Source of the DNA: Betaproteobacteria bacterium
Lineage (GTDB): Bacteria; Pseudomonadota; Gammaproteobacteria; Burkholderiales; SG8-41
Reading direction: 5' to 3'
NCBI GenBank assembly: GCA_021730905.1
Contig: JAKFYK010000025.1
Coordinates: 145,377 to 209,376 of the forward strand
DNA: 64,000 nt
How positions within the stretch are numbered: position 1 is the stretch's first letter; each line of letters opens with the position of its first letter. The notes beneath the pieces are model-generated. The model was not told the DNA's origin. It saw nothing but the letters and a program-made list of their open reading frames with translations, and did not search any database. The translations under genes and the position numbers were made by a program. This document shows positions 36,234-40,290 of the stretch, piece by piece.

Positions 36234-36782
36234 TTAGTTCTCGACCAGACCGCCGATGTCCGCAAGATCCGCTGCGAAGCGCAGATCGATCTTGCGCGCA
36301 TCGCCGCTCGTGCTCTTTTCATCACTGGTAAAACGGCCTTCCACCCGCTTCGCGGTATTAACCTTTACTGCGCTCGTGCCTATGCCCGACAAGTTCATAT
36401 TGGAGCCTGGAGGTTTAAAGAAATACAAACCCTTGATTTCCCCGCTTTGATCGACTTCAAATTGCGCATACGCCGTACTGTCGAGGTACGGCCCCCGTTG
36501 CAACGCCATTACCTTGCGCTCTTTTTTCAGCGCGGCGGTCATGGCTTTCTTGTCCAGCGGCGACTCACTCAAGATCACCACAGTCAGTTGTTTCTTATCG
36601 GAGTCTACGGCACGAAAAGCATAGATATCCTTGAAGGTGAGCGACACACGCTGAGATCCGATCGCTCCAACGAACGTGCCACCCGCAGAATCCGCTGCCA
36701 CCGCGGGCATGTTCCACGCCACCAGAGCAGCAAGAACGAAAAATAAGCCGAACTTTTGTATCCCGAAAAAAAGAGTCTTCAC
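36234..36782 (-). CDS. Secreted protein of unknown function
   Basis: 182 residues from a GTG at 36782 (VKTLFFGIQKFGLFFVLAAL..., signal peptide ending AVAA), with GGGAG seven bases upstream; a longer ATG start at 36857 adds only a non-conserved leader. The mature part has beta-strand-like segments (GGTFVGAIGSQRVSLTFKDI, QLTVVILSESPLDKKAM, TAYAQFEVDQSGEIKGLYFF) and ends DLADIGGLVEN. I recognise no family. It lies 81 bases after the MFS gene on the same strand. Confidence 0.7.
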   Translation of the reverse strand: MKTLFFGIQKFGLFFVLAALVAWNMPAVAADSAGGTFVGAIGSQRVSLTFKDIYAFRAVDSDKKQLTVVILSESPLDKKAMTAALKKERKVMALQRGPYLDSTAYAQFEVDQSGEIKGLYFFKPPGSNMNLSGIGTSAVKVNTAKRVEGRFTSDEKSTSGDARKIDLRFAADLADIGGLVEN

Positions 36783-36863
36783 GATATTGCTCCCAAGAAA
36801 GATGTACGTTCGGTTGCTGCCTCGATCAAATCCCAAAAAAGCTCCTTGAGCGTTCACGCCCGG

Positions 36864-38627: not shown

Positions 38628-39383
38628 TTAGGCTAGCGCCATCGCAGAAATCGGAACGATTCGACGCTTTGGCATTGCATCATAGGTGCGGCCGTTCATT
38701 TCTCGGCCAAATTTGTCTTTCCGTACACCGCCCCATTGTTTAAAGAAAAATGCGATGTGGTGTTCTTCGCATTGCTCGCGAATATCTTGCGCCCACTTCT
38801 CCATCATTGGTCGCGCCTTCGGCCCCGACTCGCCACCAACAATAACCCAATGAATGCCCGTTAAATCAAGTTTGCTGAGTGGTCCGATTAGCGGCTCACA
38901 AGAGAGAAAGCGCACCGCGGCGGGCACGCGGCGCAAGTCGTCAATTCTGTGTAGTACGCGAGAATCTTCCACACTGACCCCCATCCAGACGTTCGCGGGC
39001 CATGGTAACCGTGACGACAGTTTTGCAAGCCGGCCAGCGCGTTTAGTCAGAACTTGATAAGTATGCTGTGGCGAAGCGGCCATGGTCTTGAATACGCGTT
39101 GAATAAATTCAAGCGGCACCGCTTCCTGAAACAAATCGCTCATCGAATTCACAAACACTGTGCGCGGTTTCTGCCACTGCAACGGTCGCTCGACAAGGTC
39201 TTCGTGTAAAGTGGGCTTAAATCCGTCGGGGTAACGTGAACTGCCCATTGCTTGCAATCGCTTCGCCATGCGCTCGGCATAGCAATGCTTGCAGCCCTGC
39301 GATATCTTGACGCAACCCGTCACCGGATTCCACGTCATTTCAGTCCATTCGATGTTCGATCTGCTTGCCACGCTGCGCCCCAC
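38628..39383 (-). CDS. Phage Gp37/Gp68-family three-Cys-motif protein (DUF5131)
   Basis: 251 residues from a GTG at 39383 (a GTG at 39371 is also possible). The family signature is SNIEWTEMTWNPVTGC then KISQGCKHCYAERMAKR, with cysteines 24, 31 and 34 giving the three-Cys motif, which suggests a 4Fe-4S cluster of radical-SAM type. Later landmarks: TVFVNSMSDLFQEAVP, WMGVSVED, RFLSCEPLIGPL and WVIVGGESGPKARPM, then FFFKQWGG at the C-terminus, as in phage Gp37/Gp68 proteins. It lies 15 bases after its partner TcmP. The DNA is visibly less GC-rich than its surroundings. Substrate unknown. Confidence 0.9.
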   Translation of the reverse strand: MGRSVASRSNIEWTEMTWNPVTGCVKISQGCKHCYAERMAKRLQAMGSSRYPDGFKPTLHEDLVERPLQWQKPRTVFVNSMSDLFQEAVPLEFIQRVFKTMAASPQHTYQVLTKRAGRLAKLSSRLPWPANVWMGVSVEDSRVLHRIDDLRRVPAAVRFLSCEPLIGPLSKLDLTGIHWVIVGGESGPKARPMMEKWAQDIREQCEEHHIAFFFKQWGGVRKDKFGREMNGRTYDAMPKRRIVPISAMALA

Positions 39384-39398
39384 TTTTAGCGTTCTACT

Positions 39399-40226
39399 TC
39401 AAAAATAAAAACCACGTTGCGTCAGATCGGACGCTGCGCTATTCCATATTTTATGCGCGAGGTCTTTCCTTGAAAACAAGATCAAGCGATACAACTCGGC
39501 TCGCCTGGCGTTCTTGAAAACAGGTCGATTCAAAGAAGGCTTTAATCCGGTTTGTTCCACCAGCTTGATCCAGTAGTTCTCAAACGCTTGCGGCGCTTCG
39601 CGCTTATTTAATTGCTTGGCAGGAACATGAACTCGCCAATTCGGTGCAACGAGGTCGAACGAACCGCCACCGTCACGGTATTGCGTGATCAGATTGCGTC
39701 GTAGGTCCATCAAACTAAAATGGGCGATGATGTCAACGTGCTTGAGTTTGGCTAACGCGCTGATTACCGAGAACTGCAGCAGGTTCAAGTTGAACGGGTC
39801 AAGCACTGCCAAATTGAGCCCCGAGTGATCTACGTGCTTAATTGCCTGAACGACAGTTTCGTGCGCAGGCCCCAGCAATAAAATTGGCTTGCCACCACGG
39901 CGGGAAATTCGCTCCGCACAAACCCTGAGGTTTTCCGAGTCGATATCGCCGATGATAAATTTCGTGAATGCCCCACCTTTCAGAATTGACTGACTAAATG
40001 CGCTGACAGCGCTACCATCCTGCCATTCCTTTCCAAAGCGTTCGTATACGCGCCCCGGACCGCAGAACAAGTCTATGTAAGTACGTTGGGAGAAATGAGT
40101 ACGGGCGGCCCAGCAAGCATCCACATAACGGCGAATGCGGTCCGTTTTATCGGTAGACCAAAATCCAACGGAAAGCGCGCGCAAGCCATCAATCGGATCG
40201 TCGACATATCTAACGCGCGAAGCCAT
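39399..40226 (-). CDS. tcmP: Three-Cys-motif partner protein TcmP
   Basis: 275 residues. The N-terminal GFWSTDKTDRIRRYVDACW and the methyltransferase-like loop TYIDLFCGPGRVYERF are hallmarks of TcmP, named for its co-occurrence with the Gp37/Gp68 three-Cys protein that follows it here. Further segments: AFTKFIIGDIDSENLRVCAE, LNLAVLDPFNLNLLQFSVI and DIIAHFSLMDLRRNLI; the fold is probably Rossmann-like but the activity is unknown. The two genes form a compact, lower-GC cassette with its own promoter (40262-40290). It is absent from the core-gene style of the flanks, suggesting horizontal gain. Confidence 0.9.
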   Translation of the reverse strand: MASRVRYVDDPIDGLRALSVGFWSTDKTDRIRRYVDACWAARTHFSQRTYIDLFCGPGRVYERFGKEWQDGSAVSAFSQSILKGGAFTKFIIGDIDSENLRVCAERISRRGGKPILLLGPAHETVVQAIKHVDHSGLNLAVLDPFNLNLLQFSVISALAKLKHVDIIAHFSLMDLRRNLITQYRDGGGSFDLVAPNWRVHVPAKQLNKREAPQAFENYWIKLVEQTGLKPSLNRPVFKNARRAELYRLILFSRKDLAHKIWNSAASDLTQRGFYF

Positions 40227-40261
40227 AACCTTTCCATGATCAAGAGCAGATAAGATTACTG

Positions 40262-40290
40262 ATTATATATACAGTTAACTAATTACCTAA
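40262..40290 (-). promoter_or_regulatory. Sigma-70-like promoter of the tcmP cassette
   Basis: On the minus strand TTAGGT (40285-40290), a 17-base spacer, and a perfect TATAAT (40262-40267), about 36 bases before the tcmP ATG. The region is AT-rich, unlike other intergenic DNA here. Confidence 0.6.

Follow-up and report, generated by a model that had tools for sequence, protein, structure and literature searches.

The TcmP–DUF5131 cassette and its promoter

The window analysed here is a 64,000-nucleotide stretch of a Burkholderiales genome (Betaproteobacteria bacterium, GTDB SG8-41; GenBank assembly GCA_021730905.1, contig JAKFYK010000025.1, positions 145,377 to 209,376), and the element under study is a two-gene cassette on its minus strand. 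The upstream gene (39399..40226) encodes TcmP, a 275-aa protein with a predicted class I methyltransferase fold (motif I D52-x-F-x-G56-x-G58-R, motif IV D143-P144-F), followed after 15 bases by the gene for a 251-aa DUF5131 (Gp37/Gp68) protein (38628..39383, GTG start) with a predicted radical S-adenosylmethionine (SAM) barrel and a CX6CX2C motif (C24, C31 and C34). Both open reading frames (ORFs) lie where a first-pass annotation, made from the sequence alone, had placed them, and its family assignments were borne out, with TcmP scoring 130.4 bits against NCBIfam model TIGR04474 (curated cut-off 53) and its partner 345.6 bits against PF07505 DUF5131 (gathering cut-off 28.9). The numbering of the three cysteines is likewise correct with the GTG start, which is itself uncertain owing to a second GTG four codons inward; all three are invariant across 55 aligned sequences, the window's included.

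The sequences TATAAT and TTAGGT upstream of TcmP had been read as a promoter. The −10 element TATAAT (40262..40267) is perfect and its spacer is 17 bases, but the −35 element TTAGGT (40285..40290) is weak, matching TTGACA at only two of six positions, and the promoter was not listed by a consensus promoter scan, whose single, unrelated hit compares with a chance expectation of 2.2. What had been missed is the context of TATAAT, which is embedded in a LexA-type (SOS) box, AACTGTATATATAATCAGTA (40257-40276, minus strand), 31-50 bases 5' of the TcmP start codon. Scored against a 20-base consensus in which the CTGT and ACAG positions carry double weight, this box reaches 24 of a maximum of 28 and is the top 20-mer of the window, the runner-up scoring 18. 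The same score gives 22 for the lexA promoter, 21 for recA and 24 for an integron integrase of the window's genome, and the box over the cassette promoter is of the host's type. Sites with at most three mismatches to the 16-base consensus number four in the 5.1-Mb genome: one each at lexA, the integrase and the cassette, plus an unassigned fourth. These features make a putative LexA-operated SOS promoter the better reading. The integron integrase (TIGR02249, 467 bits; L194:279-1508, minus strand) has a LexA-like box at its start (G000:C2:185893-185908); integron integrases are known to be under SOS control (PMC3108266).

LexA-type boxes at the promoters of related pairs

We compared the promoter regions (−250 to +60) of pair genes with those of other ORFs at the same loci, with duplicates and redundancy removed and the window excluded. 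Among beta- and gammaproteobacterial loci, a CTG-N10-CAG box (score of at least 21) was found in 13 of 148 pair promoters and in none of 602 controls (p 4.4e-10), corresponding to 11 of 66 loci. When 300 shuffled palindromes of equal composition were run over the same 148 promoters, they gave 0.33 matches on average and at most seven, the one with seven differing little from the LexA box. In alphaproteobacteria the CTG box was absent from all 33 pair promoters, while GTTC-N7-GTTC, the alphaproteobacterial LexA box according to an excerpt of PMC3091678, was present in 6/33 against 3/171 controls (p 7e-4), at 6 of 17 loci. Viral contigs carried the alpha box in 7/55 pair promoters against 2/346 controls (p 2e-5) and the CTG box in 1/55 against 0/346. 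The xanthomonad box TTAGN6TACTA was absent from all groups scanned.

Within the window's own genus, all three pairs whose promoter lies on the contig have a box (scores 24, 23 and 23). Two of these pairs, in genomes G062 and G064, are only distantly similar to the window's and carry the boxes scoring 23; the pair in G063 is broken by a contig end. A further sample, scored without a control set, contributed CTG boxes scoring 24 at two loci (L206, L209) and, outside the window's own class, alpha-type boxes at three (L230, L232, L245). Taken together, the boxes in relatives tend to follow the local LexA type.

LexA-like genes beside or inside the cassette

A LexA-like gene was found at 12 distinct loci, in six adjoining TcmP divergently and in six lying between TcmP and DUF5131. 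These 12 derive from 15 labels, since two contigs were present twice and the LexA gene at L147 is ~2.3 kb off. The three such proteins that were scanned all matched Peptidase_S24 and scored 105, 76 and 80 bits against the LexA model TIGR00498, below its cut-off of 111. At the six divergent loci (L051, L052, L054, L060, L123 and L140) a near-palindrome close to GATACCGAACGATCGTTCGGTATC is situated at the shared promoter, in some of them within an over-long ORF call, and a very similar site stands upstream of TcmP in L059 and L214. Separately, in a genome with no TcmP match (L254, G068:C64), DUF5131 and a LexA-like gene, identified by eye, are divergently arranged and have a matching near-palindromic site.

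A set of mutually related rhizobial prophages has an S24-type repressor within a few hundred bases of TcmP at 11 of 12 loci of the cluster (two scanned). Rhizobial prophages such as L150-L153, L157, L159 and L160 have a small ORF divergent from TcmP, 89 aa long in some of them. As far as can be judged from sequence, LexA-type control is met in three forms.

Partnership and spread of the two families

TcmP was detected at E ≤ 0.001 in 16 of the 74 genomes of the family (14 over cut-off), at 17 loci, and DUF5131 adjoins it at every one of the 17, one DUF5131 being interrupted by a contig end. Beyond the family, DUF5131 lies within ~2 kb of TcmP at 77 of 80 loci in named genomes (the best 80 of 102 relatives) and at 41 of 41 loci on viral contigs; in two of the three genome loci lacking it the contig stops shortly past TcmP. 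Two further, partly overlapping samples yielded TcmP over cut-off in 21 of 399 genomes of the order and 24 of 398 of the phylum, with DUF5131 present at 35 of 36 additional loci (one of the 36 duplicates an earlier locus). The partnership, which the first-pass annotation had given as known, is near-constant, and the pair occurs on chromosomes, prophages, viral contigs and plasmids. Gene order is variable: tandem in the window, DUF5131 first elsewhere, convergent on most viral contigs, or extended to three genes by an additional, longer TcmP. That the two genes stay together however they are ordered points to a joint function. Many genomes also gave weak TIGR04474 matches, which were rejected as TcmP: the two scanned with Pfam are RlmJ, and four more looked alike by eye.

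DUF5131 is the broader family, with members in 161 of 50,697 phage records and 407 of 72,556 plasmid records, while the window's TcmP had no match among phage records at 1e-5. Gordonia phage Easley (L067) encodes a TcmP distant from the window's: gp39, annotated as a methyltransferase only, scores 187 bits and is convergent with gp38 (DUF5131), with an immunity repressor adjoining and an integrase near. Three plasmids of Paraburkholderia, Burkholderia and Acidovorax (L064, L065 and L066) carry DUF5131 with a long (~420 aa) and a short TcmP, with imuA and genes for an error-prone and a Y-family polymerase following on the Burkholderia plasmid. The DUF5131 gene of a mycobacterial prophage stands amid recE, recT, ruvC and DNA methyltransferase genes. 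One prophage contig has a second DUF5131 gene apart from the pair (L153:14532-15281). At another locus (L257, G024:C36), in a genome with DUF5131 and no TcmP match, neither a LexA-like box nor GAAC-N4-GTTC was found within 3.7 kb.

The cassette is present in only 4 of the 14 members of the window's genus; a conserved core locus was accordingly rejected. The two genes are also less GC-rich than their surroundings, as the first-pass annotation had said. GC content and GC at third codon positions (GC3) are 0.536 and 0.575 for DUF5131 and 0.506 and 0.554 for TcmP, compared with means of 0.611 and 0.725 in the 32 other ORFs of the window, and both GC3 values fall under the lowest of the 32 (0.606). 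Overall GC of DUF5131 is not below all others, ORF 36234-36857 having 0.524. The cassette is flanked by a xanthine-dehydrogenase-like gene and a major facilitator superfamily (MFS) transporter gene; no phage-like domain was found in the three flanking genes scanned with Pfam, nor any tRNA in the window with ARAGORN. The two-gene cassette is patchy in distribution and was probably acquired. In G062, of the same genus, a divergent TcmP–DUF5131 pair (G062:C127, L048; 33% and 40% identical to the window's) occupies the same slot after the xanthine-dehydrogenase-like gene, which may reflect an insertion hotspot, allele replacement or chance.

Predicted folds of DUF5131 and TcmP

The DUF5131 model, built from an alignment of 55 sequences, has a predicted local distance difference test score (pLDDT) of 92.6 and a predicted template-modelling score (pTM) of 0.89. 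Spore photoproduct lyase had been set as a hypothesis ahead of the fold search. Foldseek against the PDB gave six matches below 1e-3, all of them spore photoproduct lyase, which on realignment reached Z 14.3-14.5 over 196-198 residues with a root mean square deviation of 2.9; viperin (Z 11.7), RlmN (11.6) and lipoyl synthase (11.2) came next. The earlier guess of a radical-SAM-type enzyme therefore agrees with the predicted barrel, with the radical-SAM enzymes at the top of the structural matches and with the three invariant cysteines. Their CX6CX2C spacing is not the canonical CX3CX2C, but the radical SAM superfamily includes variant cysteine spacings.

The TcmP model (68 sequences, pLDDT 95.0, pTM 0.92) is consistent with the methyltransferase-like character claimed for this protein, having a predicted class I methyltransferase fold and SAM motif I. 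D52, G56 and G58 are invariant in eight close sequences, and across the 68 G56 and G58 are invariant and D52 nearly so. The nearest folds are Trm1 (Z 15.4), the Legionella RlmJ-family structure 2oo3 (14.6) and Escherichia coli RlmJ (13.4-14.5). At the sequence level, the TcmP profile weakly matches an RlmJ protein (E 3.8e-8), and its motif IV, DP[FY], resembles the DPFG of Trm1. Searches against PDB sequences returned weak matches only, including haemoglobin and catechol O-methyltransferase.

Comparison with known systems

The first-pass annotation had called the pair a candidate undescribed system, which does not wholly hold: the partnership already gives TcmP its name in NCBIfam, and PADLOC lists the same two protein families as defence candidates PDC-M41 and PDC-M30. 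The window's DUF5131 scores 405 bits against PDC-M41 (B), whereas its short TcmP matches A only weakly (34.6 bits, 3.5e-9). The annotation's statement that the joint function is not known fared better, as we found none among the open-licence PubMed Central (PMC) papers listed, and among the same papers we found no published function or SOS link for PDC-M41 or PDC-M30 and no paper connecting TcmP or DUF5131 with SOS or LexA, or describing their fold. The families, their partnership and the candidate-defence label are therefore already known; the LexA box over TATAAT is new.

The nearest solved fold to DUF5131 is spore photoproduct lyase/SplB. Unlike SplB, DUF5131 has CX6CX2C in place of the usual CX3CX2C, no detectable sequence similarity to the lyase, no fourth conserved cysteine and, usually, a partner gene of methyltransferase fold. 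DUF5131 as a photoproduct lyase proper was rejected because the extra lyase-type cysteine is not conserved. SplB is SOS-regulated in several species, according to excerpts of PMC8565304 and PMC3765255. The pair may be an SOS-controlled radical-SAM module with regulation comparable to that of splB and with its own partner and chemistry.

TcmP resembles RlmJ (23S rRNA A2030-N6) and the Trm1 tRNA methyltransferases in fold and SAM motif; in sequence its kinship to RlmJ is weak. Whereas RlmJ is encoded by a stand-alone housekeeping gene, TcmP is accessory and paired with DUF5131. The window's DUF5131 is also related to Radical SAM mobile pair protein A (TIGR04471), at 96.9 bits far under the cut-off of 355; the partner of TIGR04471 is another family.

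A further comparison comes from mycobacteria, on the strength of excerpts of three papers. BCG_2748c is described as containing a three-Cys-motif partner domain and is numbered next to recX, BCG_2749c (PMC7387457). Rv2735c lies downstream of recA-recX on the same strand, and its transcription is at least in part shared with that of recA (PMC3062782). In the third paper mitomycin C altered 131 genes, of which 128 rose and three, all RNA genes, fell; Rv2734, Rv2735c, recX and recA make up one cluster among those altered (PMC5057432). From its position BCG_2748c would be Rv2735c, so that a mycobacterial TcmP-domain gene apparently belongs to the mitomycin-induced recA-recX operon. In Mycobacterium tuberculosis, recA-recX-Rv2735c would thus place a TcmP-domain gene under DNA-damage control and, unlike in the window, inside the recA operon.

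Proposed mechanism and alternative explanations

Computation supports the pairing, the folds predicted for both proteins, the box with its enrichment and the LexA-like repressor genes. From these we infer a mechanism comprising LexA repression, cluster and SAM binding, a DNA substrate and a division of labour between the two proteins. We hold with moderate confidence that the cassette is an SOS-induced operon of a radical-SAM and a methyltransferase-like protein, probably acquired, whose products act on nucleic acid, most likely DNA, that has been damaged or modified. LexA would occupy the box over the −10 element and keep the operon off; upon DNA damage, activated RecA would promote LexA self-cleavage, leading to co-production of TcmP and DUF5131. 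DUF5131, on a scaffold like that of spore photoproduct lyase, would then direct a 5'-deoxyadenosyl radical at a base of the damaged or modified nucleic acid, and TcmP, with its RlmJ/Trm1-like class I methyltransferase fold, could bind, present or methylate the same target. A DNA target is favoured by the SOS control, by the lyase-like fold and by the company of recE, recT and ruvC and of error-prone polymerase, Y-family polymerase and imuA.

A number of observations weigh against this reading. Near-consensus sites are no more numerous in the genome than those of a reversed-pattern control (4 vs 6 strand hits); the case therefore stands on where the sites lie and on the relatives. Most of the related loci lack a recognisable box: 55 of the 66 in beta/gammaproteobacteria and 11 of the 17 in alphaproteobacteria. 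The alpha-type box also occurs in beta/gamma pair promoters, where its frequency is not significant (6/148 vs 11/602, p 0.1), and at L207, from the window's own order, where the local type is a different one (no control promoters). In the rhizobial prophages the GTTC-N7-GTTC box is ~133 bases upstream of TcmP and nearer the small divergent ORF, which it may control instead of TcmP. Four of the 20 family genomes (of 74) with DUF5131 over cut-off have no TcmP match. For DUF5131, TM-scores to spore photoproduct lyase are ~0.5, the family profile had no sequence-level link to PDB chains at E ≤ 10, and among the cysteines of the 55 sequences only C24, C31 and C34 are invariant, with no conserved counterpart of lyase C140, its H-donor. 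For TcmP the ranking of folds is not sharp, with N6AMT1 (14.1) and other methyltransferases (13-14) close behind, and the nearest folds are RNA-acting enzymes.

The first-pass annotation had guessed at a phage- or defence-related nucleic-acid modification. Its defence part is possible in view of the PADLOC listing, but it is not the best-supported reading. In such a scheme the pair would be an SOS- or phage-triggered antiphage defence that alters or damages incoming nucleic acid, LexA acting as an infection alarm, and we regard this as unlikely. In addition to the status of both families as PADLOC candidates, pairs occur on viral contigs (41 loci), on plasmids and beside the immunity repressor of phage Easley; in an excerpt of PMC10855318, PDC-M30 is predicted in 32 Pseudomonas aeruginosa strains of which 68.8% are phage-resistant, a correlation, and in one of PMC12445080, SMa2243 (TcmP) and SMa2245 (hna) of Sinorhizobium meliloti are listed together. 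The neighbourhood signal, by contrast, is weak: AAA_21, TIR, AbiEii and FRG (among the best 25 families) are each found in 2-4 of 149 near-neighbour proteins, but far neighbours (150 proteins) match PADLOC models too. Peptidase_S24 is found in 5 of the 149 and is not among the best 25 families of the far set. The window's cassette, moreover, sits between the xanthine-dehydrogenase-like and MFS genes, and recurrent LexA-type control would not be expected of most defence genes.

It has also to be considered whether the target is RNA, as TcmP's nearest relatives would favour. An RlmN/MiaB-like DUF5131 and an RlmJ/Trm1-like TcmP would then perform an SOS-induced modification of rRNA or tRNA under stress; the best folds of TcmP, its sequence kinship to RlmJ and the appearance of RlmN among the next folds of DUF5131 are in line with this, but the best fold of DUF5131 is a DNA enzyme, clear of the others, and its mycobacterial prophage neighbours are recombination and DNA methyltransferase genes, and we consider RNA modification rather improbable. 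More improbable still is that the pair modifies a mobile element's own DNA at induction, the SOS control serving prophage or island excision and not repair. The S24-type repressor near TcmP in the 11 related prophage loci, the low GC3 and the patchy presence would fit, whereas the window shows neither phage-like flanking genes among the three scanned nor a tRNA, and the chromosomal copies in its own genus retain a host-type LexA box.

Returning to the SOS-induced operon that we favour, its most specific form is a new SOS-regulated repair system spread by prophages and plasmids. In it, a radical-SAM enzyme would act directly on a base lesion, reversing or rewriting it, alongside a methyltransferase-like partner dedicated to it; control would lie with the local type of LexA in alpha- and in beta/gammaproteobacteria and with private LexA-like repressors elsewhere. 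We put this forward tentatively, as a possibility that falls short of an even chance. A pair of puzzling role, so far counted as putative defence, nevertheless gains a handle: its probable trigger is DNA damage, and its DUF5131 component is most like a DNA-lesion reversal enzyme. The pair would represent either a new pathway of damage reversal or a defence triggered by damage.

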